Shown here: positions 1,913-46,579 of the stretch, piece after piece
Layout of the letters: every line of letters begins with the position of its first letter
How positions within the stretch are numbered: the first letter of the stretch is position 1
NCBI RefSeq assembly: GCF_964019385.1
Contig: NC_088649.1
Span: 25,975,517 to 26,039,516 of the forward strand
Length of the DNA: 64,000 nt
Reading direction: 5' to 3'
From: Sycon ciliatum
Taxonomy: Eukaryota > Porifera > Calcarea > Leucosolenida > Sycettidae
Program-made: the position numbers and the translations under genes
The notes under the pieces: model-generated
What the model saw: only the letters and a program-made list of their open reading frames with translations
The model's database searches: none
What the model was told of the DNA's origin: nothing

Positions 1913-2239
1913 CCAAATGGCTCCAGGCCAACGATTCGGTACACGCCGCAGCAACTCCAGCACACAGACCCAGCGTGACTGAGCAGTTCGCAGAGGACGC
2001 ATGTCAGGAGTACGGATATCATCTCATTACCAAGGAGTGGCTAGAAGAACATGGCTATGTGTTAACAGAGCGCTGGCTAGAGAAGTTGGCCTTATTGCAT
2101 AAGCACCAGCAAGCACCTTACCACGTCGCGTCAATCCGAGTCAATGGCCGTTCCCTTTACAGAACCGTAATGTTTAGCGCACAAAAGCAGACGTTTCAGA
2201 ACGCCACAAGCAAAACTCAAGCCCAGATTCTCTGTGTCA
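1913..2239 (+). CDS. Unit 1 exon A (domain A)
   Basis: Exon of 327 bases (109 codons), phase 1-1, between a TTTGCAG acceptor and a GTAAGT donor. It encodes a domain beginning KWLQANDSV, with a central TEQFAEDACQEYG block, a WL-x4-H-x-L motif, and an end in ILCV. There are two cysteines, in the ACQEYG block and the final ILCV. Three further copies share the same start, core and end. I do not recognise the family. The A-x2-C-x3-G core and the closing hydrophobic-Cys pattern resemble a reduced C-type-lectin-like fold, which is weak inference. Confidence 0.75.
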
Positions 2240-3264
2240 GTAAGTGAGACAAGGCTCCTTAACTTAAAAGGCTGACCATGCGCAAGTAGTGCTCTTACCA
2301 TGCACAAGTAGTGCTCTGCCCTTGTGTGTGACCTCAGCACGATGAGTATACTGTTGTGCATTTGTGCATTTGTGTAACATGTGTCCTGTGCCACCGTTAA
2401 CTGTGTGAACAGGGCTTGTGCTAATAATGTGCCACTATGTACGATGTGACCTTGCAACGTGCAAACATGTCGTATCCAAGCATTCCTTGCACGCACAATG
2501 GATCCCAATATAGAGAGCCCTTCCTGAACTGAGGATCAGGTTGTGTTTTTTTTGTAATTTCGAAGTTTTGATTGCGACTTGCTTGTTTGGCGCAAGCCAC
2601 TTTATTTGTCGGAAGAAAGTCTATGCAGTGTAGCGTGGCGATTGTCCACAACCCTGGGAGCGCAGGCCATATTATCTAGGTGTTCGCATGAGGGGTAGGA
2701 TGGGATATTATTTTACAGTCAAACACCGATTGTGCGGACGTTAACTATCCGGACAATCGGTTATCCGGATCTCCTGGTCGGGCTGGACAACATACAAAAT
2801 TGGTAGCTTTTTGTTTGAAGTTTTGCTGATTTTTGCCACTCGGAGCACCACTCAAGCGATGCCCAAGATGTTTTACAGCAGGTTGTTCAGTCAAAATGTA
2901 CAACGATGAGAAGCTGGAGTGCACCTAGGTCCTGTTGTACTACCGAAGAGAATTCAAAATGGTGAAAATTTGCTGGAATATGCATGTGATAGATGTATGA
3001 GTGGTCCCATAACCGAGCATTCTTCTCCTCTGATCACCGTGGAAATGGCCAGTGCCCCGAAGGGTGGCTGACAATTGGCACCCTGCTGTATTTTAACGGC
3101 AACTGTCAAATGCACTATGCTTTAGCTCCTTGGCAGATCCTATGAGGGTAAATACTGAAAAAATCCCTGCTCTCACGCATTAGTTCCTATAATTTTTTGC
3201 TGAATGATAAGGTTTCTTGGACCATCATTTTGGATTATCAAAAATGTCAAGTGTTAGGGACTGT

Positions 3265-3796
3265 AAAGGCCGATTCACAATACAAATTCTTGCGACGCGA
3301 CATCCAACTTTACAACACCTGCGACGAGCTGCGACAGCGACACACAGTTCACAATAGATGATATCCCAAATAACGTGCTACTAGACTTGAGGGGGCATTG
3401 CACACAAGTTGCATACAAATTATACTACAATGTGTACACGGTAGGCCCTGAGCTCTGCATGAGGACAAGTCACAGGTAACTGTACAACTTTGAACTTTGT
3501 ATGCAACTACTTACTCTGCAATGCCCTCCCAAGTCTAGTTGCACGTTATATTGCATATCATCTATCGTTTTCATGTTTACGACATCCTTATGCGCTAGTA
3601 GTACTATGCACGTGCACTGCATGTGCACCCAGGGTCAAAACAGTACTCCATTTTGTGTATGTCGTACAACATTCTTCAACTTCTGCGACAGGTGCTTTGC
3701 AACAGCTTGCGACAGCTCGCGACAGGCAGATTCTTGTCGCAACTGTCGCAAATTGTGTGTCACGTCGCAGAAAGTTGTACTGTGAATCGACCTTTA
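3265..3796. mobile_element. Inverted-repeat element rich in GCGACAG
   Basis: Ends are inverted: AAGGCCGATTCACAATAC on the left and the complement of GTACTGTGAATCGACCTT on the right. Both ends abut TA, so a TA or TTA target duplication is possible. The subterminal parts are rich in TGCGACAG-type words. No transposase is seen, so it is a MITE-like, non-autonomous element in the intron before exon B1. A relative lies at 39467-40607. Confidence 0.6.
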
Positions 3797-3838
3797 GAGT
3801 GTAATGCAATTGACTTTTTGTTGTCCTGTTCTGCACAG

Positions 3839-3922
3839 GGACATGTGAGACCGGTGTTCTTGGACCAAACCTGAGTTGTGTGTGTAACCGCACCTCAACC
3901 TATGGTCAATATTGTGAAAAGG
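3839..3922 (+). CDS. Unit 1 exon B1 (4-Cys half-EGF)
   Basis: Exon of 84 bases, phase 1-1, acceptor TGCACAG and donor GTAAGA. It encodes TCETGVLGPNLSCVCNRT, a YGQYC segment and EKG. The four cysteines follow C-x10-C-x-C-x8-C, the C-terminal half of an EGF module. Equivalent exons occur in units 3 and 4 but not in unit 2. A structural role in a rod of EGF-like modules is likely. Confidence 0.75.
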
Positions 3923-4439
3923 GTAAGACGCCGAGCCATTCTTTTTTTTTGGTTTATCTGAGAACACGCAGCAAGACTGCTGGAGATCATCCGGTATCAT
4001 GATCTATGCAAGCGGAGAGACCGGCCCAATTCACCTAGACCACTTAGTTAATGTGAAAGTCATGGAAAGCCTTGTACCTCGGATGAAGCATTTGCTGGAG
4101 ATGGCTGACATTGCCACGGCTAAATGGTTAATTAACTCGTGCTCAAGGGTCTCATCGATTGGCGAAACTGGATTGAGTGCGCGCAGGCAGTGACATTCGA
4201 GCAACGCTGGCCAAATCTAACAAAGCAAGGGTGTAGTACGCAAAATGCACGCATGTTGTACAAAGATTCTGTGAAGGCTTCCAAAAAACGTCAACGTCCA
4301 TTTCCACTCAAGCGACTCCCGGGTTGGGGGCCGGTGTGGTCGGATTCCACTCCAAGTACACCTACTCCGGATTCGGCCAGATTAAGCCAATTGACCACGC
4401 ACTTGCTCGGAACGCACTTGCTCGGTATTCGCCCTATCG

Positions 4440-6300
4440 ATCATGCCCATCTCAGTCAAATGTTGTTGTTTCAAATCTTTATTCTCACGATAGCCAGTGG
4501 CCAATAAGAGATAATAGTGTAAGAAAGGAGAAAGAGTGAGGAAGAATCGGGTGGGCAAGGCCTAGGGGTTAATGACTACTTAAGTGTACGGGCAGGGGTG
4601 GTCGCTACACGAGCATACAGAGTTGTGTACTTAAGTTTACGGGCAGGGGTGGTCGCTACACGAGCATACAGAGTTGTGCAACAGCAGGGATATCTCGGAT
4701 TTGAAGGGAAAACGAGAAAGGATTTCGCGAAGCTGGGTGGGCAAGCAATTAAAGTAATGAAGGGCTTTGTACAGGGGAGAATGGAGACAGCGGTCAGTCC
4801 GCAGAGTTGGCAATGCCAAGTACGAGAGCGACGTAAATTAAACGAAGGTTGCACGTTGCTAGCAGTATGCAGCGAGAGTATATGTGGTGGGGCGTAATTG
4901 TGGCGCAGAGAATGCGCGAAGAGTATATGTTTAACTTAAAAGTGTGAAAATATTGTTGACCATTTGATGCGATGCAAAAGGTCGGAGTGTTCTAAGTGTG
5001 TGTAAAGGGGAAGGTGGAGACATATTCTGGCGGCTTTCCGCTGGAGTCGTTCTAGCCTGTCAAGGGAAGTGTGTGACAACGGTGTGAGAGCATTGCTCGC
5101 ATATGAGAATATAGGTAGTATGTATGTCTGATAGATGTGAGATAAAGAATCACTGGTGAGTGTAGACCTTAGTCTAAAAAGAATATTGAAAGACTTGAGT
5201 GGTTTTTTGACTATGTATTCAACATGCTCCGTCCAACGGAGGTCATGCTTAAAGATTATTCCGAGGTGTTTGTGTTTTTGTGCTACGGTAAGCGGAATAT
5301 TCCTGAGGGTGATCTGGGGTAGCTGTTCAGGGGGGCGGTTATTGTGGTAGAACGGGAGGATGACTGTTTTCTTTGTGTTAACCAGCAGATGCCATCTTTG
5401 AAGCCAGTCTCCAGCTGCTGTGACACTCTGTAGTTTCGGGTGCAGTCTTGAGGAGTTCTCGCTTTGGAAATCAGAACGGTGTCATCTGCAAATTGGCTAC
5501 AGGTGGTGCCGGGATTCTCACTTGCGTGTGGAAGGTCTATGTTGTAGACGAGGAATAGAAGCGGCCCAAGAATAAATCCCTGAGGGACGCCCACAGGGAT
5601 CTCGAGGAAAGGCAATAGGTCGCCATCCACCTGCACCCTCTGCCGACGCCCCAACAGGTACTGTCGGAACCACTTCAGGGCGTTGCCCTGGACACCATAG
5701 TGGGAGAGTTTTGCTGGAAGGCCGGCATGCCACACACGATCGAAGGCCTTGCTTAGATAAAAAAAAAGCAGGCATTGACGTGTTTCCCGTCGTCTCTCGC
5801 AGTGGAGAGGGTATCGACGAGACGGGCGATCTGCTGCTCAGTGCCGTCTTTCGCGCGGAATCCGGACTGCTGGTTGGGCAGGTGGGGTGTGATGTGCTTG
5901 TAGAGGATTTGACGTGCAATTTTTTCTTGGATTTTTGATGTACTGCTCAAGAGAGAGATGGGTCTATAATTTGTTGGTTGGGTTGGGTCACCAGGCTTGA
6001 GTACTGGAGAAATGGTGGCATCTTTCCACTCCTGTGGGATTTCTCCGGTTTGGAACGATAGATTAAAGAGGTACGATAACGACGGTGCAAGTTCCTTAGC
6101 CGCTTCTTTGAGTAGGCGGTTTGGAATAGAGTCGAGCCCGGGGCTTTTGTTGGTATCAACTCCGCGGAGGAGTTTTTCGACCTCAGCTTGGGAAGTCGAG
6201 ATTTCTTGAAGGGGACTGAGGATTTCAGGGGTGGTGTTGATGGCTGGAGTTTGCTCATCCGCATTGGCCACGGACAGCTTGCTCTGTGAAATGAAGAATT
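4440..6300 (-). pseudogene. Decayed non-LTR retrotransposon (LINE) reverse transcriptase
   Basis: Read on the minus strand, the sequence gives in order: SPGLDSIPNRLLKEA and NYRPISLLS (about 6140-5960), then GFRAKDGTEQQI, then after a frame break LKWFRQYLLGRRQRV, GVPQG and FADDT (about 5680-5480), then LDRLERLQ (about 5050) and a C-terminal FNCLPTQLREILSRF (about 4740). These are the ordered reverse-transcriptase and tail motifs of CR1/Jockey-group LINEs. Several frameshifts and a missing endonuclease show a dead, 5'-truncated copy. The 3' tail region (4440-4540) has a TTTATTCTCACG..CCAATAAGA stretch also seen near 52505. It sits antisense in the B1-B2 intron. Confidence 0.85.
4577..4678. repeat. 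About 51-bp direct duplication in LINE 3' end
   Basis: Two nearly identical adjacent copies of a segment starting ACTTAAGT and containing GGGGTGGTCGCTACACGAGC occur inside the LINE 3' end. It is probably a local slippage or tail-repeat event. Confidence 0.6.
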
Positions 6301-6372
6301 TGTTGTTGTTGTTGTTAATTTTTATTTTACTTCACCAAGTGAACAGGCATTTCTGCCTTCTCACCAGGTCAG
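6299..6372 (-). repeat. LINE/SINE 3' tail with (CAA)n
   Basis: On the minus strand a segment with AATAAAAATT is followed by about six AAC/CAA repeats, the usual tail of a retroposed sequence. The non-tail part (CACCAGG/GAACAGGCA/CTGCCTTCTCAC) recurs near 16940-16980, so it belongs to a dispersed family. Confidence 0.45.
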
Positions 6373-6481
6373 CGGAGACAAGACTAAATGATAAATGTCT
6401 CGATTTCCACTAAGCATAGAGTAACACCCCGTGCATTTTTCTATGCCACTCCGTGCATGCGTTTATTGATGGGCGTTGCAG

Positions 6482-6568
6482 CATGCAAGTGCTTGAATCA
6501 GGGTCAGTGTGACAACAAAGGTGAATGCAGCTGCCCGAAAGGATTCACCGGAGACAAGTGCCAACTCG
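6482..6568 (+). CDS. Unit 1 exon B2 (EGF-like module)
   Basis: Exon of 87 bases, phase 1-1. It encodes a six-cysteine EGF-like module: ACKCLNQGQC, then DNKGECSCPKGFTGDKCQL. Spacing is C-x-C-x5-C-x5-C-x-C-x8-C, and GFTGDKC is the typical EGF end. The very short first loop resembles tenascin-type EGF repeats. No calcium-binding D-x-N/D signature is present. Confidence 0.88.
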
Positions 6569-7186: not shown

Positions 7187-7267
7187 TTGTGTGTACACAT
7201 CCCTGGGTGAAAAAGAACAAATTATGCGAATGTACGACCAGACTAGATGGACCTAACTGCACAGAAG
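7187..7267 (+). CDS. Unit 1 exon B3 (4-Cys half-EGF)
   Basis: Exon of 81 bases, phase 1-1, acceptor GATGCAG and donor GTAAGG. It encodes VCTHPWVKKNKLCECTTR then LDGPNCTEG. Four cysteines (C-x10-C-x-C-x8-C) match the second half of an EGF module. An N-glycosylation sequon (NCT) falls on the last cysteine. Copies occur in units 2 and 3 but not in unit 4. Confidence 0.78.
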
Positions 7268-7856: not shown

Positions 7857-7943
7857 CATGCAAATGCTTGAATGACGGCCAGTGCACCGAAGATGGCACC
7901 TGCATCTGCCGGAAACGTTTCCATGGAGATCAGTGTCAGAACA
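7857..7943 (+). CDS. Unit 1 exon B4 (EGF-like module)
   Basis: Exon of 87 bases, phase 1-1, acceptor CTGCTGCAG and donor GTAAGT. It encodes ACKCLNDGQCTEDGTCICR then KRFHGDQCQN, a six-cysteine EGF-like module with the same short first loop as B2. It is the last EGF module before domain C. Confidence 0.88.
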
Positions 7944-8990: not shown

Positions 8991-9752
8991 GTTTCAAGAC
9001 AAAGTGCCTGGGTACAGATAAGGCAATGTACACCTGGATGGCTCTTGCCGGCTTGCCGTGTCATCCACACCTCGACGGTGACAGCTGCCAGAAGAAGACG
9101 AACTTGACGCATGCCCGACAGATGTGCAAGAGAAGAGGATACGACGTGGTAGACTATAATGCCTTCACAACCCTGTCTCTGGGCGTGCGGGACTGCATGG
9201 AAGCATTGCTCAACAAGATGATGGCAAGCAATTTCAACAACCCTATCACAATATGGACATCTTTCTTGAGGGATGGCAAGCATGTCATTTACAAGGAGGG
9301 CAAGAACAACTTAAGAGAAGAGTTACATGATAGTAGTGGAGCAAGCCATCTTGATTTTGAGATGATGGCGAGCGGTGACAGCAACCCTATCTCCCTATCG
9401 TCAGGGCAAGGACAAATTAAGAACAAGTTGAGAGAAGAGTTACATGATGATGGTAGTGGAGCAAGCCATCTTGATGTCAAGATGATGGCGAGCGGTGACA
9501 GCAACCCTATCTCCCTATCCTCAGGGCAAGGACAAGTTAAGAACAAGTTGAGAGAAGAGTTACATGATGATGGTAGTGGAGCAAGCCATCTTGATGTCAA
9601 GATGATGGCGAGCGGTGACAGCAACTCTATCTCAATATCGGCATCGCTCGAGGAGGATGACCAAAATATCATGTACCAGCAGCGCAAGAACCAGTTAAGA
9701 GAAGAGTTACTTGATAGTAACGGAGCAAGCCATCATGATGTCATCTGCGAAG
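8991..9752 (+). CDS. Unit 1 exon C (domain C with internal repeats)
   Basis: Exon of 762 bases, phase 1-1. The acceptor is GTTAAG where the other C exons have TTCAG, and the donor is GTAGGC. It encodes FKTKCLGTDKAMYTWMALAG, a LPC..DSC pair, ARQMCKRRGYDVVDY, VRDCMEALL and an ending HHDVICEG. It is twice as long as the other C exons because a block of about 117-120 bases (about 40 aa, core REELHDDGSGASHLDVKMMA) is repeated in frame between 9303 and 9690. The A-x3-C-x3-GY pattern, IWTS and final VICEG recall C-type-lectin-like domains. That assignment is tentative. Confidence 0.78.
9303..9720 (+). repeat. In-frame coding minisatellite in domain C
   Basis: Units start at about 9303, 9421, 9541 and 9689 (last partial), each with a GAGAAGAGTTACATGATG core. 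Copies 2 and 3 are nearly identical over more than 100 bases, so expansion is recent. Lengths of 117 and 120 keep the reading frame. The unit fuses the end of the domain (REEL..GASH) back to its middle (MMAS..NPI). Confidence 0.85.
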
Positions 9753-10817: not shown

Positions 10818-10853
10818 TTCCAGAACGTTTTCGTGTGACCATCATCAGTGGAA
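10818..10853 (-). ncRNA. Hammerhead-like motif, family i, left arm
   Basis: Minus strand: stem I TTCCA/TGGAA (5 bp), core CTGATGA, GAAA, then a self-complementary ACGT as a minimal stem III and TC before stem I closes. Stem II is poor (at most two pairs in TGGTCACAC). The order matches type I hammerheads reported in Penelope-like elements. Activity is unproven. Confidence 0.55.
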
Positions 10854-11050
10854 CATCGTCACATAGTAAGAATCACTAAAACAACCAGTAATATAGCTAG
10901 AGTAATATGAAAAGAAGCGTGAGAATGCAGCACAGCTAGCGGTTATGCATAACGCGTGTAGTGTGAACCTTTGCAGTGTATCTGAGAATGGTAGCAGTAG
11001 ATGAATGTGGCAGCTGTGAGTGCGTGTGAACAAAAACTGGTGAGTGCGTA

Positions 11051-11680
11051 TTATTTAAAAAGTGTGAGTGCTACAACATTTTCTTTTTGCTTGCATAGAA
11101 CAGGGTCACGTGTGCGAATATATACAGCTTCCAACACCTGCAACTGCTTAAAGAAACGCGCGCGACAAATAACACTAAACCAGGAATCGTCAAACAACTT
11201 ACGACAATCCGGACTGGACACCAAATGCTTGTAGATGGCAGACTTGCTCTTGTCGATGTCGAACCCCTCCTCGTCCGTATCACTCTCATCCTCCACTTCC
11301 TGTTCCTGCTCACCCTTGCTTTCCTCCTGACCATCCTGTTCATCCCCATCATCATCCTCCATCTCCATCTCCTCATGCCATCGCTTCTTTCCCCTTGACG
11401 TGTTCACTGCTGCGCCCGTACTTTCACCTGCCACTACTGGTTCCGCCTTCTCCATTTTTCTCAGTCGTGTCTCCGCTAGTCTCTGGCTTCTCCTCAGATT
11501 CGTTTTTCCTCCATTTTCATTTTGTTCTCCTGGTGATCTTTCCGTTACCGCCGTCGGTTTGTTAACGAACGATCGTCCGGTGGTCTCCCATGCCGTGTTG
11601 TTGTCGTCAAGAGTGACACCAGATTCGTGTGTTGCGCTACTGTTGAGTCCGGTGTTGTATCCGAACGTATCAAGCAACAC
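11051..11680 (-). pseudogene. Penelope-like protein C-terminus, left arm
   Basis: Minus-strand frame that joins the other copy's sequence at its 5' edge, so its N-terminus is artefactual. It has an acidic linker (EMEDDDGDEQDGQEE and EVEDESDTDEEGFD), then SAIYKHLVSSPDC, FFKQLQVLEAVYIRTRDPVL and a short tail. The S-A-I-x-KH and LEA-x-YI-x4-P-x-L patterns match the C-terminal GIY-YIG region end of Penelope-like elements. The reverse-transcriptase core is absent. Confidence 0.6.
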
Positions 11681-12409
11681 GTCCCATTGTCCTTGTTGTC
11701 AAAAGCGGCCAGGGCAGGCAGGCCAAAGCGTGGGAGGCCACGAAAACACCCGTTGCCTACTACTACGCCTGTCAGTATTACAACACAACCAGAAACGGAT
11801 ACAACACCGGACTCAACAGTAGCGCAACACACGAATCTGGTGTCACTCTTGACGACAACAACACGGCATGGGAGACCACCGGACGATCGTTCGTTAACAA
11901 ACCCGACGGCGGTAACGGAAAGATCACCAGGAGAACAAAATGAAAATGGAGGAAAAACGAATCTGAGGAGAAGCCAGAGACTAGCGGAGACACGACTGAG
12001 AAAAATGGAGAAGGCGGAACCAGTAGTGGCAGGTGAAAGTACGGGCGCAGCAGTGAACACGTCAAGGGGAAAGAAGCGATGGCATGAGGAGATGGAGATG
12101 GAGGATGATGATGGGGATGAACAGGATGGTCAGGAGGAAAGCAAGGGTGAGCAGGAACAGGAAGTGGAGGATGAGAGTGATACGGACGAGGAGGGGTTCG
12201 ACATCGACAAGAGCAAGTCTGCCATCTACAAGCATTTGGTGTCCAGTCCGGATTGTCGTAAGTTGTTTGACGATTCCTGGTTTAGTGTTATTTGTCGCGC
12301 GCGTTTCTTTAAGCAGTTGCAGGTGTTGGAAGCTGTATATATTCGCACACGTGACCCTGTTCTATGCAAGCAAAAAGAAAATGTTGTAGCACTCACACTT
12401 TTTAAATAA
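11627..12409 (+). pseudogene. Penelope-like protein C-terminus, right arm
   Basis: Same protein end as the left arm on the opposite strand, with more upstream sequence from the 132-base spacer. That adds a basic AT-hook-like stretch, AGRPKRGRPRKHP, ahead of a Thr-rich linker. The acidic linker and the YIRTRDPVLCKQKE end are unchanged. An extra C near 11912 relative to the left arm shifts the frame in the upstream part, so residues before about NPTAVTERS are read differently. It lacks the catalytic domains and is a fragment. Confidence 0.6.
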
Positions 12410-12606
12410 TACGCACTCACCAGTTTTTGTTCACACGCACTCACAGCTGCCACATTCATCTACTGCTACCATTCTCAGATACACTGCAAAGGTTCACACT
12501 ACACGCGTTATGCATAACCGCTAGCTGTGCTGCATTCTCACGCTTCTTTTCATATTACTCTAGCTATATAACTGGTTGTTTTAGTGATTCTTACTATGTG
12601 ACGATG

Positions 12607-12642
12607 TTCCACTGATGATGGTCACACGAAAACGTTCTGGAA
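12607..12642 (+). ncRNA. Hammerhead-like motif, family i, right arm
   Basis: Exact mirror of the motif at 10818-10853. It has TTCCA, CTGATGA, a weak stem II, GAAA, ACGT, TC and TGGAA. It lies about 200 bases 3' of the Penelope-like stop codon, the place where these elements keep such ribozymes. Confidence 0.55.
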
Positions 12643-13009: not shown

Positions 13010-13324
13010 CCAAGTGGCTTCACGCCAACTCCTCAGTATACACCACAGCAACGCCAGCGCTGAGGCCCAAAGTCACTGAGCAATTCGCAGAGGAGGCATG
13101 TGAGCAGTACGGACTTCACCTCATAACCGGGGCCTGGCTGCAAGCACATGGCCATGTATTAAGAGAGAGCTTCCTAGAGAGATTGGCTATTCGGCAAGCA
13201 CCTTACCACGTCAAACCAATTGTGGTGAACGGCAACTCCCTTTTCAGAACCGTAACGTTTAGCGAGGGAAAACAGAGGTTTGTGAACACCACAAGCAATC
13301 ACCGAGCCCAAATCCTCTGTGTCA
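13010..13324 (+). CDS. Unit 2 exon A (domain A)
   Basis: Exon of 315 bases, phase 1-1, acceptor GTTTTGCAG and donor GTAAGT. It encodes KWLHANSSVYTTATPAL, TEQFAEEACEQYGLHLITG, LERLAIRQAPYHVKPIVVNG and a closing ILCV. It aligns along its whole length with exon A of units 1, 3 and 4 and lacks the short insertion (KHQQ) of unit 1. Confidence 0.78.
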
Positions 13325-13615: not shown

Positions 13616-13651
<36 letters not shown>

Positions 13652-14882: not shown

Positions 14883-14969
14883 TGTGCAAGTGTTTGAACC
14901 AGGGTCAGTGTGACGACAAAGGCAAATGCATCTGCCCGAAGGGATTCACCGGAGACAATTGCCAGAAGG
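14883..14969 (+). CDS. Unit 2 exon B2 (EGF-like module)
   Basis: Exon of 87 bases, phase 1-1, acceptor CTGCTGCAG and donor GTAAGT. It encodes VCKCLNQGQCDDKGKCICPK then GFTGDNCQK, six cysteines with the same spacing as B2 in unit 1. In this unit it follows exon A directly, since no B1 was found between. Confidence 0.88.
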
Positions 14970-14988
14970 GTAAGTAGAAGCAGGCGTC

Positions 14989-16343: not shown

Positions 16344-16424
16344 TTGTGTGCACACATCCCTGGGTGAAAAAGAACAAAGTATGCGAATGTAAACCCAGAC
16401 TAAATGGACCTAACTGCACAGAAG
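16344..16424 (+). CDS. Unit 2 exon B3 (4-Cys half-EGF)
   Basis: Exon of 81 bases, phase 1-1. It encodes VCTHPWVKKNKVCECKPR then LNGPNCTEG. It is nearly identical to B3 of unit 1, and the donor GTAAGGGCTGAA is conserved too. Confidence 0.8.
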
Positions 16425-16816: not shown

Positions 16817-16903
16817 CATGCAATTGCCTGAATAATGGTCAGTGTACTGAAGAAGGCGCCTGCGTCTGTCCGACCGGATTCCGGGGAGACCAATGTCAGG
16901 ACA
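16817..16903 (+). CDS. Unit 2 exon B4 (EGF-like module)
   Basis: Exon of 87 bases, phase 1-1. It encodes ACNCLNNGQCTEEGACVCPT then GFRGDQCQD, a complete six-cysteine EGF-like module. The intron before it keeps the AATCACTGCTGCAG acceptor shared by B4 in units 1 and 3. Confidence 0.88.
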
Positions 16904-20710: not shown

Positions 20711-21034
20711 CCCAATGGCTCCATGCCAACGATTCTGTATACGCCGCAGCAACTCCAGCACTCGGACCCAGCGTGACTGAGCAGTGCGCAGAGAACGCAT
20801 GTCAGCAGTACGGACTTCGCCTCATAACCAAAGACTGGTTACAAGAACATGGCCATGTGTTAAGAGAACGCTGGCTAGAGAGATTGGCTTTAGATAAGTC
20901 CGACAGATTAGGTTACCACGTCGCGCCAATCCTGGTCAATGGTCAGTCCCTTTACAGAACAGTAAAATTTAGCAGACAACATGTGACGTTTAAGAACAAA
21001 ACAAGCCATGAGGATGCCAAGATTCTCTGTGTCA
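20711..21034 (+). CDS. Unit 3 exon A (domain A)
   Basis: Exon of 324 bases, phase 1-1. It encodes QWLHANDSVYAAATPALG, TEQCAENACQQYGLRLITKD, LERLALDKSDRLGYHVAPI and a closing ILCV. It has an extra cysteine (TEQC) not seen in the other A copies. The intron after it matches the unit 1 intron (for example ATGTGCAAACATGTCGT) for about 200 bases. Confidence 0.8.
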
Positions 21035-21779
21035 GTAAGTGAGAGAATAATAAGTGACTGTTTTCTGCGATGGCTGTCCATGCACAAGCTGTGTGTTTGT
21101 CCCTGTTTGTGCCGCTAACGTGATGAAGATAGTTGTGCGTTTGTGTAAATGTGTCCCGTCGCTACGTGCACTGTATGAACAGGGCTTGTCCCAACGATGT
21201 GCCCACTTGCAATGTGCAAACATGTCGTCTCCCAGCATTTCTTGCACCCACGGTGAATCACAACATTGAGAACACTCCCAGAACTTAGATTCAGGCTGTG
21301 TTTCTTCTGTGTCTTCCCAGGGTAATTTCGAAGTCATTACAGCATGTTTTGATTCTAAGGTTTTGTTTGGCGCAATATCAGTTTGCGGCAGAGACGGGGG
21401 AGAATTTGCTCCCTGGATTCCAATTGCGAGGAATCAAAATGCATGACAAGCTGAAGTTCGACATGCCACCAGGGTTGAGATAATTTACAGACCACTTTTT
21501 GTTGTTGTCAAGAAACAGGGGGAATTCCCATGACTGTCACCACGTGAGGAGGTGAAAGTTTACTACTTGACGTAAAACCCCTGGCGAGGGCTGTAACCCT
21601 ACTATTTGCCGACGGAGCTGAGAACTTTCCTATGCAAATAGACTTTTCGATTGCTCAATTCCATTCAGGGAAAGCCGAGTTCCGAACATTTGAGCATCTG
21701 CAGTATGCACTGCACAGTAATACGGATGTATCTATCGTACAGCAAGAGCTCAGAAACCGTGTTGGAAGTGTTATGGTGT

Positions 21780-22364
21780 CATGCATCCCGTTCTATGGTA
21801 CCGTGCCTTGCTGTCATGCTTCCATTCTATGGTACCGTGCCTTGCTGTCATGCATCCCGGTCTACGGTACCGTGCCTTGCTGTCATGCATCCTGGTCTAT
21901 GGTACCGTGCCTTGCTGTCATGCATCCCGTTCTATGGTACCGTGCCTTGCTGTCATGCATCCCGTTCTATGGTGCTGTGCCTTGCTGTCATGCATCCCGT
22001 TCTATGGTACCGTGCCTTGCTGTCATGCGTCCCGTTCTATGGTACCATGCCTTGCTGTCATGCTTCCGGTCTATGATACCGTGCCTTGCTGTCATGCATC
22101 CCGGTCTATGGTACCGTGCCTTGCTGTCATGCATCCCGTTCTATGGTGCTGTGCCTTGCTGTCATGCATCCCGTTCTATGGTACCGTGCCTTGCTGTCAT
22201 GCGTCCCGTTCTATGGTACCATGCCTTGCTGTCATGCTTCCGTTCTATGATACCGTGCCTTGCTGTCATGCATCCCGGTCTATGGTACCGTGCCTTGCTG
22301 TCATGCATCCCGTTCTATGGTACCGTGCCTTGCTGTCATGCATCCCGGTCTATGGTACCGTGGG
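21780..22364. repeat. 35-bp minisatellite, about 17 copies
   Basis: Unit CATCCCGTTCTATGGTACCG followed by TGCCTTGCTGTCATG, 35 bases, repeated with few substitutions. Some copies are 34 bases or read GGTGCT for GGTACC. A higher-order pattern of about seven units seems repeated (a variant set at 21961-22080 recurs at about 22136-22250). All three plus frames stay open only because the unit has no stop. Confidence 0.92.
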
Positions 22365-22812: not shown

Positions 22813-22896
22813 AGTCCTGTGGGAGCGGTGTTCTTGCACCAAGCATGAGTTGTGTATGTAACCGCACTATGTCCTACGGTGAAGAATGTGAAAAGG
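22813..22896 (+). CDS. Unit 3 exon B1 (4-Cys half-EGF)
   Basis: Exon of 84 bases, phase 1-1. It encodes SCGSGVLAPSMSCVCNRT then MSYGEECEKG, with the same four-cysteine spacing as B1 of unit 1. Confidence 0.78.
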
Positions 22897-24168: not shown

Positions 24169-24255
24169 CATGCAAGTGCTTGAACCAAGGTGAGTGTGAT
24201 AACAAAGGTGAATGCAGCTGCCCTAGGGGATTCACCGGCCACCATTGCCAACTCG
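24169..24255 (+). CDS. Unit 3 exon B2 (EGF-like module)
   Basis: Exon of 87 bases, phase 1-1, acceptor TGTTGCAG and donor GTAAGT. It encodes ACKCLNQGECDNKGECSCPR then GFTGHHCQL, a complete six-cysteine EGF-like module close to B2 of unit 1. Confidence 0.88.
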
Positions 24256-26396: not shown

Positions 26397-26477
26397 TTGT
26401 GTGCGAGGAACCCTGGGTGAAAAAGAGCAAAGTGTGTGAATGTCAACCGGGACTAGATAGACCCAACTGCACAGAAG
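26397..26477 (+). CDS. Unit 3 exon B3 (4-Cys half-EGF)
   Basis: Exon of 81 bases, phase 1-1. It encodes VCEEPWVKKSKVCECQPG then LDRPNCTEG. Four cysteines, NCT sequon and donor GTAAGG are conserved with units 1 and 2. Confidence 0.8.
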
Positions 26478-26826: not shown

Positions 26827-26913
26827 CATGTAATTGCTTGAATGACGGTCAGTGCACTGACGATGGCAGTTGCAACTGCCGGAACGGTTTCCATGGAGAC
26901 AAGTGTCAGCATA
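26827..26913 (+). CDS. Unit 3 exon B4 (EGF-like module)
   Basis: Exon of 87 bases, phase 1-1, acceptor CTGCTGCAG and donor GTGAGT. It encodes ACNCLNDGQCTDDGSCNCRN then GFHGDKCQH, six cysteines. Confidence 0.88.
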
Positions 26914-30417: not shown

Positions 30418-30732
30418 CCAAGTGGCTCCATTACAACGACTCGGTATACGCCGCAGCCACGCCATCACTGAAACCCAACGTGACTGAGCAGTTTGCAGAG
30501 GAGGCATGTCAGGAGTACGGACTTCACCTCATAACCTATGACTGGCTGCAAGCACATGGCCATGTATTAAGAGAGCGCTGGCTAGATAGATTGGCTCTTC
30601 GGCACGCACCTTACCACGTCAAACCAATCCGAGTGAATGGCAACTCCCATTACATAACTGTAACGTTTAGAAATCGCAGTAATCCATTTCAAAATTCCAC
30701 AATTAATCGCCACGCCAAAATCCTCTGTGTCA
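30418..30732 (+). CDS. Unit 4 exon A (domain A)
   Basis: Exon of 315 bases, phase 1-1, acceptor CCTGCAG and donor GTAAGT. It encodes KWLHYNDSVYAAATPSL, TEQFAEEACQEYGLHLITYD, LDRLALRHAPYHVKPIRVNG and ILCV. It is closest to exon A of unit 2. The following intron of 8.5 kb is enlarged by the Gypsy element. Confidence 0.8.
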
Positions 30733-32350: not shown

Positions 32351-33343
32351 ATGGCCCAAGCACAGCCTAACCAGCAAGTACCGCCGGCCCAGCCGCCCCG
32401 TCCGGGCCAGCCAGTTCAGCCAGCTCAGCCAGCCCAGCCAGTTCAGCCAGCACAGCCAGTTCAGCCCGCCCAGCCAGTGCAGCCAGCCCAGCCAGTTCAG
32501 CCCGCCCAGCCAGTTCAGCCCGCCCAGCCAGTTCAGCCCGCCCAGCCAGCTCCCGTTCGACCCATCCGGCCATGGGCAACTCCGGAACGTTTTGATGGTG
32601 GAGCAGCCTCGGACTGGACTACTTGGCGTGACCACTTCACTCAAGTTTGCCTGGTTAATGAGTGGACGCCGCAGGACCAGGCACAGTACATCCCGTTGTA
32701 CTTGATAGATAATGCGCAGTGCTACTACCAGTCGCTTCCTGTCGCGACACGCCAGGATGTTCAGCAATTACTGGTAGCTCTGGAGGGTCGGTTTGCTCCA
32801 CCCGTCAGGACCGACCTCCACAGAGCGGAATTGAAGGCCAGACGACAGCGAGGTGAGGAGGCGTTGTCTGATTACTGCGAGGTGATTCGCCGATTGTCTC
32901 GCAGAGCGTACCCTACCTTGCCAAACCTCGTGCAGGACCAGCTGGCATGTGACCAATTCATTGAAGGTCTGGACAGCAGAGAGTTGCGCATGGAGGTACG
33001 TCGCCAAGACCCCCGAACTCTTGACCAGGCACTGCAGCAAGGACTTCGAGCACTTGCCATACTCCAAGCGGACGCTACTACTAGTGCGTCTCAGCCAGTG
33101 GCCGCGGCTGTCTGTGCTGCCAGGGAAGATCGTTTGGATGCCTTATTAGTAAGGATGGAACGATTGGAAACCGCTCTGTCATCTTTGCAGCGACCGCAGC
33201 AGCAACCCCAGCAGCAACCCCAACAACAGCGCCGCTGTTACCATTGTGGGAGTGCCGAACATCTGATTGCGTTCTGCCCGACTGCACCTCCACCCCGGGG
33301 ACAACGTCAGCGCCCTTCGGGAAACGGCCGGGAGTTGGCATAG
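32351..33343 (+). CDS. gag: Gypsy gag polyprotein
   Basis: 330 codons. The first 70 residues are a Gln-Pro-rich repeat (QPVQPAQP). A gag-like region follows ([27 protein letters not shown]), then a Gln run and a single zinc knuckle [14 protein letters not shown] near the C-terminus. It packages element RNA. The stop lies about 100 bases into the pol frame, so pol is reached by a -1 shift, the usual gypsy arrangement. No damage is seen in this frame. Confidence 0.85.
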
Positions 33344-36300
33344 AGGGTCCAGAGTCAGCTCCAAACCACCATGGCCCGGAAGTGCTGCCCGCCGCGCCTT
33401 CCGATGTAGTATGCCATTCCGTTGCTGTTGACAGTTGCCAGTATGTTATCGGCAAAGTAAGTTCAATATGCACAACTGATGTCCACATGTTAGTTGATTC
33501 TGGAAGTTCGATTTCGTTTGTCAGCTCAGCATTCTATCAACAACATAAGCATATAAAATTAAACAAAATTTCTACATCAGTCCGAAGTGTTGATGGCAGT
33601 GGCGTGACTGTGGAAGGAGCGGTGGATGTGCAGCTAGAGTTTGGCAGCCTCCAACTTCAGCACACTATGGTAGTTGCGAACATTGAGCCTGACGTACTAT
33701 TATGCATAGACTTCCTCCGTAGGCACGGTTGTATTATGGATCTGGGACAAGGCTGTCTGCACTTGAGCAATCAGACCCTTCCATTAACACAGGGAGTTGG
33801 GCCCAAGCACCTTTCATGTCAGAGAGTGGAAACAGACCCCATTCCAGTGCAATTGGCTGAATCTGTTGTTCTACAGGGCTATTCTCAGTTGATAACGCAA
33901 GGTAGATTACGTGACACTGAGTTTATGTCTCCATCGTGCGGAATGGTAGAGCCAACAGAGTCGTTCGTAGATACATTTTGTGTCAGTGCAGCTAGAGTGG
34001 TCACGACCGTGAGTGAGAACAGTACTGTTCCTGTCAGGTTGCAGAACCTGCTACCACGGCCTGTCACTATAAACAAGGGTACAGTTGTTGGCATGTTCGA
34101 ATCTTGCTTTGTTGAGAAAGCCGCAGAAGCCGCGGATGAGCCTGATTGTACTGCTGAAAGCTGTAATGCTGCTGATATGTGTTCTGACCCTGTTGAGTTG
34201 TTTGACCTTAGTCATCTCGATACAGAAGAGGCAGCAGCCGTCAGGTCTCTTCTCTCGGAGTTCAGCGACATAATTTCAACGGGAGCAATGGATCTTGGCT
34301 CTACCGGTGTTGCCAAACACGACATCGAGACCACTAGCAGCCAGCCTATTCGCCAAGCCCCTAGACGATTGCCGCTTCACCATGCCAATGAGGTTCGTGA
34401 ACATGTTGAGCAGCTTTTAGCTGAGGGTTTAGTCGATCCTTCCAACAGTCCTTGGGCAGCCCCTATTGTTGTTGTTCGGAAGCTTGATGGAGCTATTAGA
34501 CTATGTGTCGATTATCGCAAACTCAATGCTGTAACTGTCAGAGACGCATTCCCCATTCCGCGGATTGATGATGCCATAGACAACATGGGTGACGCACAGT
34601 ATTTCACAACCCTAGATCTTGCATCCGGTTACTGGCAGGTAGAGCTAACTAATGCAGCAAGGGCGAAATCAGCATTTGTCACTCCATTTGGATTGTTTGA
34701 ATGGAAAGTCATGCCATTTGGGTTGTGCAATGCCCCAGCAACTTTCCAGCGCCTGATGACCATGGTTCTGGGTGATCTTGTGCCAAGCGTATGTTCAGCG
34801 TACATAGATGACACCATAACTTTCTCGAAAACATTTCAAGAACATCTGGTTAGACTGCGCCTAGTATTTGAAAAATTCCGGGCAGCAGGTTTGAAGGTCA
34901 AGCCTCGTAAGTGCCAGATTCTGAGCAAGTCGGTTACGTATCTTGGGCATGTGTTCAAGGGAGGTGGTGTGAGCTCTGATCCCAAGAATTGCAGTTCGGT
35001 CACCAGTCTCAAACCACTTAGCTCTGCAACCGAGGTTCGTCGATTTGTAGGTTTTGCTTCCTACTACAGGCGGTTCATTAAGGACTTCGCGACAATTGCA
35101 GCACCGCTACACAAGCTAATGCAGAAACAGGCAAGCTTTTCGTGGACGGATGAGTGTCAGCAAGCGTTCGATATCCTGAAGCAGAAGCTCACGTCATCTC
35201 CTGTCCTGACGTACCCGGATCCATCCCGCAAGTTTATCCTGGACACGGATGCTTCTGACACTGGTATTGGTGCAACTCTATCGCAGGTTGACGATCAGGG
35301 CAGAGAGCAGGTAATTGCGTATGCTAGTAGTTAACTTAGTAAGAGCCAACGTCGCTACGGCACAACTCGGCGTGAGATGTATGCAGTGGTCTTCTTTGTG
35401 CAATACTTCAAACATTATTTGCTGGGTGCAAACTTTACCTTGCAAACCGATCACAAAGCCCTTCTCTGGTTGAAGGCTTTCAAGGATTCGGAAGGTATCC
35501 TGGCGAGATGGTTGGAGAAACTAGAAGCGTTCGATTTCACAACTGTCCACCGTAGAGGTACTCAGCATGCCAACGCAGATGCATTGTCACGGTTCCATAG
35601 CCAACCTGCGGACAATTCGGAGCATCCTGCATCGGCCACTGCCGAGCCTTCAGTAATGGATCCAAATATTACTGTTGTCTGTCCTTCCCAGTCTTCCATT
35701 CCTGTCCCTACAGCCGTGCCATCAGTCTCTCCGGATACAGCAGCTGGTGATGCATTGACGCAGGATTCTGGACATCAAGCATACGTGGGTAATGTTGACG
35801 TTGAATCACAACCTGCAGAACATGCGAATGATGATAGCAATTTACTTGGAAGCAATTGGGCAGATTTTTTTAGTGCAGAAGATATTCGCAGAGCTCAAGC
35901 GGAAGACAGTGACATTGACTGCATGATTGGTTGGCAACAAGCATTGTTAGACAGGCCTAAACGCAGTGATAGTGCTATGAAAGGAGCATCATTAACCTTG
36001 ATACGTCTGTGGAGTCAGTGGAAACGGCTGGTTCTGCAAGATGGCTTATTGTATCGTACGTACACTTCAGTAGATGGTAGCAACTCATTTCTGCAACTTG
36101 TTGTACCTGTCAGTTTGCGACAGAGAATTATGACTGGGATGCACAATGAGTGTAGTGGTGGCCACCTCGCTACTGAACGTACTCTAGAGAAGGTGAAAGC
36201 TAGATTCTATTGGCCTTTTATGTCGTCTGACATTGAGCTGCATTGCAAGGCGTGTGCGCTTTGTTCAGCTAGGCGTACCCCAGCACCAACCGCTCGCGCT

Positions 36301-37458
36301 CCGATGAAGGTGGACCAACCATCCTTTCCACTGCAACGTGTCGCTATGGACATCATGGGACCACTGCCCAGAACAAATCGAGGTAACCTCTACATTGTTG
36401 TGATTACTGATTATTTCACGAAGTGGGTAGAAGCGTTTGCCATCCCGGATATGACTGCTAGGACAATAGCTTCGGCACTGATTGATGGTTTCATTTGTCG
36501 CTACGGTGTGCCACTGTCTATCCACACTGATCAAGGTGCGCAATTTGAGTCAAATTTGTTCAAATCCATCTGTGAACTGTTAGATATGAAGAAGACACGC
36601 ACGACTCCATACCATCCTTCTAGTGATGGTTTAGTTGAACGGATGAATCGCACACTTGAGAACATGCTGAGTGCCAGAGTCAATGCCAATCACAATGACT
36701 GGGACCTGCATATTCAACGCTGTTTACTGGCGTATCGTAGTAGCGTACATAGTTCAACCAAGGAAACCCCAGCTAGATTGATGTTCGGCAGAGAGCTTAA
36801 GTTGCCAGTGGATATTATGTTTAACGACTCCAGAGAACATGTCAAATCTGTACCTGACTATATGATTCGTCTCGAGATCTCCTTGCAGCAGGCATTTTCT
36901 CACGCTCGATCAGCTGGCGCTAAAGCACAGAAACGTCAGAAGGACTACTATGATGCAAAGACGACCAAGCCACGGTTTGCGATCAATGACAAGGTGCGCT
37001 TACACAACCCAGCTGTGAAAGCAGGCAACACAAAGAAGTTCCTCAAGCCATGGACCGGGCCGTATCGAGTTGTCGAGGTGATCGATGACGTGGTGTACAG
37101 GATTGAGCACTGTGATACAGGGAAACTCCAGGTGGTGCACATCAACCGGCTCAAGTCAACGACTCAAGTACCGGAGGAGCAGCACGCTCCAGTGCCAGCA
37201 CACCTACCTCAACCGGCGCTAATTGATTACGTGCAAGACGCAGTTCCGGCTATTCCAGTTCCGCCTGTTCCGGTTCCAGCAGTTCCGGTTATTCCAGTTC
37301 CGGCAGTTCCAGCTGTTCCAGTTCCGGCTGTTCCAGTCCCGGCTGTTCCGGCAGCTCCCGTTGTGCCAGCCGTTCCGATCATGCCACAGGCAGGTGGGTA
37401 TAACTTACGCAATCGGGCAAATCTCCAGAGGCCGGTGCGATACCGTCAATCGTGCTGA
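33244..37458 (+). pseudogene. pol: Gypsy pol (protease-RT-RNase H-integrase) with one stop
   Basis: Frame 33244-35334 contains the protease motif LVDSGSS (about 33490), reverse transcriptase with LCVDYRKLNAVTV, YFTTLDLASGYWQ, MPFGLCNAPATFQ and YIDD (about 34803), then RNase H start FILDTDASDTGIGATLSQ. A single TAA at 35332 breaks RNase H. The same frame resumes at once as LSKSQRRYGTTRREMYAVVF. Integrase follows: H-H-C-C zinc site (GMHNECSGGH..CKACALC), catalytic D in MDIMGPL, DQGAQFE and VERMNRTLE, and a GPY-like WTGPYRVVEVID. The C-terminus is a VPAVPV repeat. One nonsense codon in otherwise open sequence suggests recent inactivation or a base-calling error. Confidence 0.85.
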
Positions 37459-39230: not shown

Positions 39231-39314
39231 AGCACTGTGCTAATGGCGTTCTGGCCCAGGACCTGAGTTGCAAGTGCAACCGCACTGTCTTCTATGGAGA
39301 CTACTGTGAAAAGG
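39231..39314 (+). CDS. Unit 4 exon B1 (4-Cys half-EGF)
   Basis: Exon of 84 bases, phase 1-1, acceptor TGCGCAG and donor GTAAGA. It encodes HCANGVLAQDLSCKCNRT then VFYGDYCEKG, with conserved four-cysteine spacing. Confidence 0.78.
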
Positions 39315-40607: not shown

Positions 40608-40714
40608 TATACTCGAATGTGGATTTTACTCTGGAAAATACTGTTCATGACCAGGTGCTGATGTCACGACCGTATTTCCACACCCAGATTTTTTTGCCAC
40701 GAAATGCAGCTACC

Positions 40715-41139: not shown

Positions 41140-41229
41140 ATGGCTGCAAGTGCTTGAACCAGGGTCAGTGTGACAACGAGGGTAAATGCATCTGCCCGAC
41201 AAGATTCTACGGAGAACATTGCCAACTCG
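41140..41229 (+). CDS. Unit 4 exon B2 (EGF-like module)
   Basis: Exon of 90 bases, phase 1-1, acceptor TCTCTACAG and donor GTAGGT. It encodes GCKCLNQGQCDNEGKCICPT then RFYGEHCQL, six cysteines. It is one codon longer at the start than the other B2 exons. Confidence 0.85.
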
Positions 41230-41554: not shown

Positions 41555-41644
41555 AGTGCAGAACATGTCTGAACCAGGGTCGGTGTAATGAAGACGGCAC
41601 CTGCACCTGCGCTGAAGGATGGATTGGCGACCGGTGCCAGACTG
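41555..41644 (+). CDS. Unit 4 exon B4 (EGF-like module)
   Basis: Exon of 90 bases, phase 1-1. It encodes ECRTCLNQGRCNEDGTCTCA then EGWIGDRCQT, six cysteines, the first pair spaced C-x2-C rather than C-x-C. B2 precedes it by only about 330 bases. No B3 exon lies between, and no domain C follows before the disintegrin exon. Confidence 0.85.
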
Positions 41645-42914: not shown

Positions 42915-43622
42915 GGTGTGCGGACACGGACCCATGCTGCGTGAACAAGCGCATCGTGACACGCCGGGATCAGGTCTGCCGTGCCGCCACCAGCGACTGT
43001 GACGTGGCAGAGTACTGCGACGGCGAGAATGCCACATGTCCACAGGACCTGACCGCACGCAACGGCTGGCCTTGCTCCAATAGTCAAGCATCCTGCTGGA
43101 GTGGAGTTTGCCAATCACGAACTGGCCAGTGTCAGAGTGTCTGGAACGATATGGATCAAGGGTCAGCTCCTGAGGATTGCTTCGCGATCATGAACGTTTT
43201 TGGAGAACGTACGGGTAACTGTGGTTTCAAATCGTCCAATTCCACCCCAGGAACCTATGCAGCCTGTGCGGCTGGAGATGCCCTATGTGGTAGTTTGTTC
43301 TGCCTTCCACTTGCTCGAAAGAACCAACCCAGTAGTGATGTTCTGTCAAAAACCGTTCCCGTACGCGGTGATGGCGGTATAATCAGGTGCAATGGTTTGT
43401 ACGCGTCCCCGCCAAGAAGCCACGATGACCCATCGCTCGTGAAGGACGGAACACGCTGTGATGCCAGCGGCGCTAACAAGGACCTCGTGTGCCACAAGCA
43501 ACGCTGCGTGGACAAGTCTCGAGTCACCAGTCAGTGTTCGGTCGATGCTGACAGCGGCAAAGAGTGTGGTGGAGTCGGTGTCTGTACAAATGTAACAACC
43601 TGCCTTTACCCACCCACACCTG
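42915..43622 (+). CDS. Disintegrin C-terminal half plus ADAM cysteine-rich exon
   Basis: Exon of 708 bases, phase 1-1, acceptor TAATGTAG and donor GTAAGT. It encodes GCADTDPCCVNKR, DQVCRAATSDCDVAEYCDG and ATCPQD, the second half of a disintegrin domain. An ADAM cysteine-rich region follows: GWPCSNSQASCWSGVC, GQCQSVW, GERTGNCGF, CAAGDALCGSLFC. It ends with an EGF-like LVCHKQRCVD and CGGVGVCTN..CLYP. In ADAM proteases these follow a metalloprotease domain and bind partners or control it. Here EGF modules precede them. The tripeptide at the disintegrin loop position is not RGD. The first half of the disintegrin domain is not visible. Confidence 0.88.
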
Positions 43623-43810
43623 GTAAGTTTTTGTTTTCACTGAATACCACAGAACCATCAGATGCTGCACAGCGGGGGCGGTGGCATATTGGATGGAAGT
43701 GGGGGTGGGGCAAAAGTAACTCCTCAAACCAAAGGTCTCGGAATCATCGTTACTAACTTACCAACCTAGTGGGCGTTTTCAATTCATTTTTAGTTTCTGT
43801 ACGTCCACGG

Positions 43811-44204
43811 TGCGTTTGGTTGGTACGATCTAGAACAGGATCGAACAGCTGGTGCACATGGCGCAGCCCCATGCCAACTACACGGTACTCCAGAAACAGA
43901 GCACATTTTTGTGAAAAATATGCCAAACTTAGTACATACTTCAAAATGTGTATGTGTCACCATGGTGACTGTGTACAGTACGAAGAGTCCAACTCCAAAG
44001 CGTGTGCACGTGATCATTTGGGACCAAAATCGATGTTCCCGCCAGGCTTCACAGTGAAAAAGTGAAACTGCTCGGTTTGCTCCGGCCTTGAGGCCGGAGC
44101 GAGCAGAACATGTTCTGGCCGACCCAGAACAGGTGCAGTGCCAACCAAACGCGCTGTTCTGGTGAATCCTGTTCTAGGTCGTACCAACCAAATGCGCCCC
44201 CAGT
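43811..44204. mobile_element. GTGCGTTTGGTTGGTAC-type inverted element
   Basis: Left GTGCGTTTGGTTGGTACGAT plus CTAGAACAGGATCGAAC, right complement of GTTCTAGGTCGTACCAACCA plus AATGCGCCC. The arms are about 45 bases. It is in the intron before the last exon. Confidence 0.6.
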
Positions 44205-44565
44205 TGGCATATGGATGCGATGTGCTACAGATCTTGGCTCTCAAACTATTGCTGCTACATGCAAAGTACAAGCAACAAAATAGCCGTCACGCCTTTTTTA
44301 GAGCTGCCTTACTGCGTGTGAGCAAAACTCTGTATCCTCCAACCAAAATTTTCATCGGCTCACGTACTCAACGTAGAATGGTCATTCAAAGTCCTCAGAT
44401 TCCTGAGGCTCAAGCTATTCTGACCTCTACTTTGCACGAGCCATGCAACCATGACCTACAGGGAACGTCCCCTTTCTTGGGCATGCTGTTCACAGACGGG
44501 CTCGCCTCACACGCAATTTGTAAAAAAATGGTTGTATCTGTGGTTCGCTCTTTCGCGCTATTACT

Positions 44566-44640
44566 GTCCTCGCAATTGGAACAGGCTCGGCCAAAAGCGG
44601 TATGGTTGCCAGGTATACTAACCACTGAGCTATGGATATG
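44566..44640 (-). repeat. tRNA-like (SINE head or tRNA relic)
   Basis: Minus strand has TAGCTCAGTGGTTAG, an RNA polymerase III A-box, followed about 45 bases on by GTTCCAATTGC, a degraded B-box. Stems do not close well, so an active tRNA gene is unlikely. A tRNA-derived SINE or relic is the better reading. The long plus-strand frame crossing it (44138-44908) has no recognisable product. Confidence 0.4.
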
Positions 44641-45012
44641 GTTACGTGTGGACACACGGAATTCGCAAAACAACTTCGTAGCACGTCCTGTGGTACTGCG
44701 CTGTAGGACTGTTTGTCAGGATGGTTCATGTGCAGTGCGAGCGCAGAAGGACCGGAAGTTGTGTGCGGATTGGATCACGTTTTCCAGTTTGAATTTTCTT
44801 CACATCGCGGATGTTCGAGCTGGGAAGGCAGAAGAACAGAGGTTCGAATATTCAGGGATTTTCAGCCCTAACGCAAACCCAGATTTTGCAATTTCACAAG
44901 AGTTTTAAAAGCCTCAGTACAGCTCCTGAAAAGAGTTTTTTGAGTAATAATGATACGGTGGCGAAGACATACCTTTAATAACCAGAGAAATGGTGGTAGC
45001 TACTAGTTACTA

Positions 45013-45692
45013 GCAAGAGTAGATAAACAAGAGTGCGCAACTCCGGATCTCTCCTGCACAATCTGCAAATACCCCCGCCCACTGCAGAATTTTTGTGGGC
45101 GTCACCTTTTTTCAGAGAAACGCGCATTTTGCCGCAGAGCAGTGCAGAGTAGGCAAAGCCCGATTTTGCCAGTGAAGCTTCGATATTTTGCCACAACATT
45201 TTGCTTTCTCATCGTTAATATTTTGCTTTCATTTGCCAGGCCACTCGATATTTTGCTCCCTTTTGCCCCAAAAAATAAATTGTGTCACATGTGGGAAAAG
45301 TGACCGAAAGTGGATCAAGTGTTGGCAAAAATGAGAAAAAGTGAGTCACGTTTTGCTAAAACTGTGCGAAATTGAGTCACATGCACCTTGTAAGTGTAAA
45401 ATCTTCAAATTTCCAGCGAACACACCGATATTTTGCTCCGTTTTGCTAGCAAATTCCCTTTCAGAATTCTTCAATATTTTGCTAGCATAATTGCTAGCAA
45501 AATCGGGCTATGCCTAGTCTGGGGCACGTGCTTGGCACTGGGCTTGTAGTGTAAGTCCGGCCAAGAGCACGAGGGAAAACTTTCCGAAAGACTCGCAGCG
45601 CGAGCGTCGTCGAAAAGATTACGTCAACAAAAAATCTGCCGTGGGCCTACCCATCCGCGAGTTGCACACACTTGTTTATCTACTCTTGATGG
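45013..45692. mobile_element. CAAGAGT-family MITE with nested inverted repeat
   Basis: Ends CAAGAGTAGATAAACAAGAG and its inverse (GTTTATCTACTCTTG). Inside, GGCAAAGCCCGATTTTGCCA near 45153 and GCAAAATCGGGCTATGCC near 45498 form a second inverted pair with repeated ATATTTTGCT words, so one element may have inserted in another. Confidence 0.55.
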
Positions 45693-46469
45693 CAAGCGGA
45701 CCGAGCTCGGGACAACCTTCCGGGTTTTGAGCTGACTGCATAGACAGAAGCACCGGTGACCTCAGAGTTGAGGAAATTCCTAATTTGCGTTTCCATCTGT
45801 ATCGTAACTTGTTAGGGCCCGATCACACATGCACTCGGAAGTAGTGGATCCACTGAAGCGACGTCGCAGGAGCGAACAATTCCATGGCAACGGCGAAAAG
45901 CAGAACTTCCGCCTCAGTGGAAACTCCAACCCGCTTCCTCAAAAATTTTCGAACCAAGACTGTCGCTTCTGCGGTTTCGCTTCAGCGGAAAGCACCACGG
46001 TCTGCTGTATAAGGACTTACTACAAGAAATTTGTATGCGTATGATGCCCATGCAATAAAATGCGTGCAAGATGGTCATTGACCTCGTCTATTGTCCGTAC
46101 CGTATGCACCAGAGCCCACTTTACTCTCATTTTCCGCCGAAGTAGGAGTTTTCCCTGTTTGTATGCGTGACCATACACACGTGGTTTTGCTGGAGCGACA
46201 CCAGGCTCGCTGTTGCAGAACCTCCAAGCTGAAGCGAACCCCAGTGCATGTGGGACCGGGCCCTAAGTGTTCCCCTTTCAAATATCACTCTGAGCACTAT
46301 GAGTGCAGGAGAGCAATATGGAACAAAAAAAAGTGAAGATCTAAAGTCAAAATGTTGGTGGGTTTCCATAGTAATTTTTGAAATCAGATTTTGCGAAGAG
46401 GGGATGGTATGCCGTTGTCTGCTTTGCTAAGATGCTTGTGTGTGTGTCCTCTCTGTTTCTCCGCAACAG

Positions 46470-46579
46470 AGAGCAACGAGTCCGCTAACACTACCCAGGC
46501 TGCTACACCCACGACCAGTTACTCAATAACCAAACCAAAGAGCGACCCGGCCACAACTACTCCAACTGAAGTCGTCTAA
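46470..46579 (+). CDS. Terminal exon, Thr/Ser-rich tail
   Basis: Acceptor CCGCAACAG at 46469. The phase 1 entry continues the previous exon's frame to a TAA stop at 46577-46579. It encodes about 36 residues (ESNESANTTQAATPTTSYS, then ending TTTPTEVV), a likely O-glycosylated tail. There is no membrane-spanning segment, so this isoform would be secreted. An alternative membrane-coding last exon cannot be excluded. Confidence 0.65.

Follow-up and report, generated by a model that had tools for sequence, protein, structure and literature searches.

The DNA analysed here (the window) is a 64,000-nucleotide stretch of the 538-Mb genome of the sponge Sycon ciliatum, located on contig C8 (NC_088649.1) at 25,975,517, and it carries a modular gene in which tandem units of a domain A, small EGF-like modules and a domain C lead into an ADAM-like tail. 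Cassette exons were detected by self-comparison of all reading frames together with a screen for phase-1 exons. A total of 23 exons was obtained on the plus strand from 1913 to 46579, and when joined they gave 1602 codons with no internal stop. AG stood before all 23 exons, GT followed 22 of them, a stop closed the last, and all internal borders were in phase 1. The exons are real and lie at the positions first proposed in a sequence-only reading of the window, whose count of 23 phase-1 exons was borne out. Since the exons begin and end in phase 1, whole units can come or go with the frame kept.

The order from 5' to 3' was A-B1-B2-B3-B4-C, A-B2-B3-B4-C, A-B1-B2-B3-B4-C and A-B1-B2-B4, then D and T. 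In unit 1, the domain A exon A1 (1913..2239, phase 1-1, with 67% identity to A3) was followed by B1 (3839..3922, four-cysteine EGF-like), B2 (6482..6568, six-cysteine EGF, matching EGF_2 with E 1.6e-5), B3 (7187..7267, four-cysteine EGF-like), B4 (7857..7943, six-cysteine EGF-like) and the domain C exon C1 (8991..9752), which had in-frame repeats of about 40 amino acids, seen in the DNA as a 120-bp tandem repeat of 2.8 copies (9302..9640). Unit 2 consisted of A2 (13010..13324), B2 (14883..14969), B3 (16344..16424), B4 (16817..16903) and C2 (18996..19367); no B1 was found between A2 and its B2, where tblastn gave E 0.74 at best. Thus the six-exon order, which had been proposed to occur three times, was complete in units 1 and 3, and unit 2 has five exons. 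Unit 3 was composed of A3 (20711..21034), B1 (22813..22896), B2 (24169..24255), B3 (26397..26477), B4 (26827..26913) and C3 (27862..28239). Unit 4, with A4 (30418..30732), B1 (39231..39314), B2 (41140..41229) and a B4-type exon (41555..41644), had neither B3 nor C and led into the ADAM exon D (42915..43622), in agreement with the shortened fourth copy proposed before. The last exon, T (46470..46579), was Ser/Thr-rich and included the stop. Repeats were far beyond chance both for A (E 4e-44, 4e-42 and 2e-40 for the other copies against A3) and for C (E 9e-64 and 1e-32 against C3).

The gene had been thought to run from 1913, which did not hold, as EGF exons of the same kinds were found before the window, the farthest 10.7 kb from its start (B3- and B4-type exons at relative positions -3908, -3457 and -10718). 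The array continues upstream, and the window contains the 3' part of the gene. Homology of the window copy with three paralogs (L062, L073 and L065) ended at 1455-1458, so that the intron DNA common to them occupied 1458..1912 on the plus strand. Beyond this break L062 and L073 had an upstream C exon which the window copy did not have, and no C exon was found before A1 in the 40 kb upstream of the window, though B3 and B4 exons were there. A calcium-binding EGF exon (L011:1376-1495), of a kind absent from the cassettes, was located 8.6 kb upstream of the window and possibly belongs nearer the N-terminus of the same gene.

Searches of the genome yielded 115 matches for A, 141 for C, 74 for B1, 100 for B3, 21 for T, 42 for ADAM_CR and 16 for reprolysin (counts of the large families are lower bounds). 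Arrays were built by linking hits separated by at most 45 kb and cutting at each ADAM exon, in a table compiled by hand from the ADAM_CR, C and A match lists; left out were the second pieces of C1-type exons, a few short C8 fragments, C matches on contigs C10 and C13 and ADAM_CR matches off C8 and C12. The 28 rows comprised 18 arrays with an ADAM exon, nine with A or C but no D, and one lone ADAM exon. The 18 arrays were situated on C12 and on either strand of C8, each being a run of C and A ending in D. At least three A exons were counted in two arrays, four in eleven, five in one, nine in one, ten in two and twelve in one, all as lower bounds. Three of these arrays, at 15.16, 15.33 and 15.48 Mb, departed from strict alternation of C and A, which missed exons may explain. 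B1 was present after A3-type exons in 10/10 cases and after A2-type exons in 0/10 among the plus-strand exons of C8; two of the ten A2-type exons had a B1 match at 7.7-8.4 kb, which was not counted because it lay past another A (at 15228645 and 15564140, respectively). The absence of B1 from unit 2 is therefore common to the paralogs.

The ends of the arrays bear on whether the units might instead be several tandem genes, or alternative transcripts, with the ADAM tail joined to the last alone. The model comes from genomic sequence, and the C-to-A introns of the window gene (1.3-3.3 kb) resemble intergenic gaps, which would suit that explanation. However, each array had one ADAM exon, at its 3' end, with the next plus-strand A or C on C8 at least 68 kb off in the 11 cases measured, and a T exon was found 2.2-5.0 kb after D in 18/18 arrays and inside none of them. 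Each C end and each A start was also in phase 1 with splice sites, and a simple scan revealed no signal-peptide first exon between units, so separate genes are considered rather unlikely. Identity was 86-100% in all 21 T matches; in two arrays a second T match lay 14-16 kb past the ADAM exon, and one T match was on contig C14, which also gave a single C and a single A.

Length change by gain and loss of cassettes, which had been suggested, was supported by the 3 to 12 A exons of the 18 arrays and by two neighbours of the window gene (C8:25.52 and 25.72 Mb) without the C1-A2 unit. Neither had an A2-type exon (115/115 candidates scored with the A2 query), a C1 type (150/151 candidates scored) or a B1 after A1, and both kept B3 and C2 of unit-2 type. 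These neighbours differed by one unit, yet they were 97.6% identical across the 1.8 kb compared around A1. Change within exons was observed as well: C1-type exons had 212 or 253 amino acids in 11 loci including the window, one 41-residue repeat apart, and the twelfth locus compared had another C type of 130 amino acids. The window A1-A4 shared 73-81% identity among themselves, whereas exons of the same type in other genes shared 97.2-99.7% with window A3 (15/15 compared) and 91.7-99.7% with window A1 (11/11). Same-type exons being closer between genes than A1-A4 within the window, the comparison indicates that the units are older and arose first, that whole genes were copied afterwards, and that units have changed since. 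The family is read as recent and still changing.

Such close copies might also come from uncollapsed haplotypes, in which case the family expansion would be mostly an assembly artefact and the array one polymorphic gene. Some single exons were identical between copies (exon C3 at three places), and neighbouring ADAM exons were spaced about 165-250 kb apart, as such an artefact might leave them. The copies nevertheless occupy C12 as well as the two strands of C8 and have different unit numbers, and the A3-type copies differed from window A3 in all 15 comparisons given above, so this explanation is regarded as unlikely.

Among the small modules, the window B2 and B4-type exon (one of each scanned) exceeded the EGF and EGF_2 cut-offs. 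B1 and B3 (one each scanned) had four cysteines and no family match, and their cysteine spacing was read as that of the last four EGF cysteines. Domain A had two conserved cysteines with about 76 residues between them, and domain C had several, including a pair about 79 residues apart. Neither A nor C matched a Pfam family, none of 14 C members had Lectin_C among its listed matches, and searches against Pfam, NCBIfam and PDB gave chance-level or weak matches; no relatives of A or C were found in the prokaryote collection, nor of C in the viral collection. The top PDB match of the C profile was LY75, with a whole-chain E of 0.037 and no individual stretch significant (best i-Evalue 30). The A profile (12 sequences) and the C profile (14) aligned weakly at the first conserved cysteine (hhalign P 0.001, probability 21%); with profiles from 4 and 3 sequences, P was 0.029 and the observed score was reached in 3/300 shuffles. 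For a C-type-lectin-like origin common to A and C, this amounts to no more than a lead.

The D exon gave an ADAM_CR (PF08516) match above the cut-off (E 4e-20) and a disintegrin match covering profile positions 33-75 of 75 (E 7e-7, 30.3 bits against the Pfam cut-off of 35.1). Hence, for the disintegrin domain proposed in the tail, the second half was matched below the score cut-off and the first half was missing; paralog L004 covered the same profile positions. By phmmer the closest PDB protein was ADAM22 (E 1e-19, query residues 5-230, through EGF). These matches bear out the ADAM tail, which consists of a disintegrin domain reduced to its C-terminal half, a cysteine-rich region and an EGF region. 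It had been correctly described that EGF modules precede the ADAM part, with the correction that the tail, like ADAM22, has EGF-like sequence downstream of the cysteine-rich region as well. No transmembrane segment was found near the C-terminus, T ending in its stop without a hydrophobic stretch; two weak candidates for an alternative exon were noted at 45116 and 48996.

The gene could still be an ordinary ADAM protease, with pro- and metalloprotease domains farther upstream and cassettes inserted before the disintegrin domain, given that the gene start was not located and that the tail was closest to ADAM22. Against this, none of the reprolysin matches was within the arrays, in a genome search which ignores introns and from which a protease divided into small exons could escape; the nearest on the array contig, at C8:14.54 Mb, was outside the arrays and adjoined the lone ADAM_CR match. 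HExxHxxGxxH was absent from the window with 40 kb upstream and 10 kb downstream (114 kb), and the first half of the disintegrin domain was missing together with the protease, which makes an ordinary protease very unlikely. Two ADAM exons on contig C3 shared 57-59% with window D and aligned with it from the same residue; the corresponding figure was 30-38% for four ADAM exons that have a reprolysin match immediately upstream. As the contig C3 exons are closer to D, the protease-less tail may predate the cassette family, or it may have been reused.

Other ADAM genes were also noticed. Four of them (L001, L002, L006 and L007), each with a reprolysin match, lay in single open frames of >1000 codons, apparently intronless there, unlike the cassette genes. 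Clusters of ADAM_CR exons at C10:17.18-17.70 Mb (7 matches) and on contig C3 at 41.47-41.48 Mb (2 matches), with neither reprolysin nor A exons there, are possibly other protease-less ADAM-tail families.

Several mobile elements and repeats were found in the window. A Gypsy-like retroelement (33085-37458), with two adjacent frames and matches to aspartic protease, reverse transcriptase, RNase H and integrase, occupied part of the 8.5-kb intron between A4 and the B1 of unit 4. A 975-residue frame (56971-59895) resembling a long interspersed nuclear element had endonuclease and reverse transcriptase matches, and related reverse transcriptase pieces were located at 51386-52396, 53461-54126 and, on the minus strand, 5756-6331. 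The C1-A2 intron contained a long, nearly perfect inverted repeat (10848-12612) resembling a foldback element, and the A3-B1 intron a 35-bp tandem repeat of about 17 copies (21777-22362). Rfam and tRNA scans gave no match.

These observations are probably best explained by one gene for a long, secreted, cysteine-rich, protease-less mosaic protein of the surface or matrix with a variable adhesion or recognition role. Its units, arrayed in tandem and built from A, C and, between them, three or four small EGF-like modules, would lead into the protease-less ADAM tail and, after it, the short Ser/Thr-rich end. A and C would act as repeated binding surfaces, perhaps degenerate C-type-lectin-like folds, carried along a stiff rod of EGF modules. 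Known ADAMs bind partners through their disintegrin and cysteine-rich parts, and the ADAM end here would likewise bind one, such as an integrin or matrix protein. No anchor was found, and the assembled protein would be an extracellular variable adhesion or recognition molecule. Nei-Gojobori ratios of nonsynonymous to synonymous substitution (dN/dS) were 0.33-0.51 for whole units (six unit pairs) and 0.13 to 1.06 for single exons (pairs with finite dS), values that fit a working protein under modest constraint.

Several points weigh against this explanation. Ratios near 1 for A1/A3 (1.06), C2/C3 (0.84) and B2_1/B2_4 (1.03) are the reason for calling the constraint modest. The gene model was derived from genomic DNA, and neither AATAAA nor ATTAAA occurred within 1 kb of the stop. 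The simple scan for a signal-peptide first exon covered the 40 kb before A1 and the C-to-A introns and found none, for which reason secretion is proposed rather than demonstrated. AlphaFold models of A and C had a mean predicted local distance difference test score of 40, too poor for comparison. The 12-unit array depends on joins up to 45 kb, and some of the near-identical neighbours may be duplicates created by the assembly.

A more far-reaching but less likely reading is that of a lineage-specific, fast-expanding family of variable-length proteins for self/non-self or cell recognition, in which a new two-domain cassette is combined with the ADAM tail as a plain binding module and diversity arises through gain and loss of units and repeat change within exons. 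Whichever role applies, the phase-1 cassettes, the roughly 18 sister genes and the neighbours with different units represent modular protein growth in progress, with an ADAM tail parted from its protease and reused. Should population data reveal that unit number varies between individuals, the family would become a candidate, open to test, for diversity in recognition or adhesion.

It had been stated that no described family was known with this layout, and none was found in the literature by title or abstract opening, which is weak evidence with subscription journals mostly outside the scope. The nearest known systems share parts of it. ADAM11, ADAM22 and ADAM23 form a group of protease-inactive ADAMs. 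ADAM22 resembles the window tail in the second half of the disintegrin domain and in the cysteine-rich and EGF regions, which align, and proteolysis is expected in neither. ADAM22 retains the metalloprotease fold, a whole disintegrin domain and a membrane anchor, whereas the window gene has half a disintegrin domain and tandem cassettes in front. Tenascins and teneurins have similar short six-cysteine EGF modules (EGF_2/teneurin type), whereas the window EGF modules are grouped by three or four between A and C; fibronectin, fibrinogen and YD parts belong to tenascins and teneurins, and the exon model has none of these. LY75/DEC-205, a protein with multiple C-type-lectin-like domains, is alike in its tandem binding domains, and the C profile matched several LY75 stretches at the same profile region; it is unlike the window gene in that the best stretch spanned C profile positions 17-55 of 124 and that A has no conserved inner cysteine pair.

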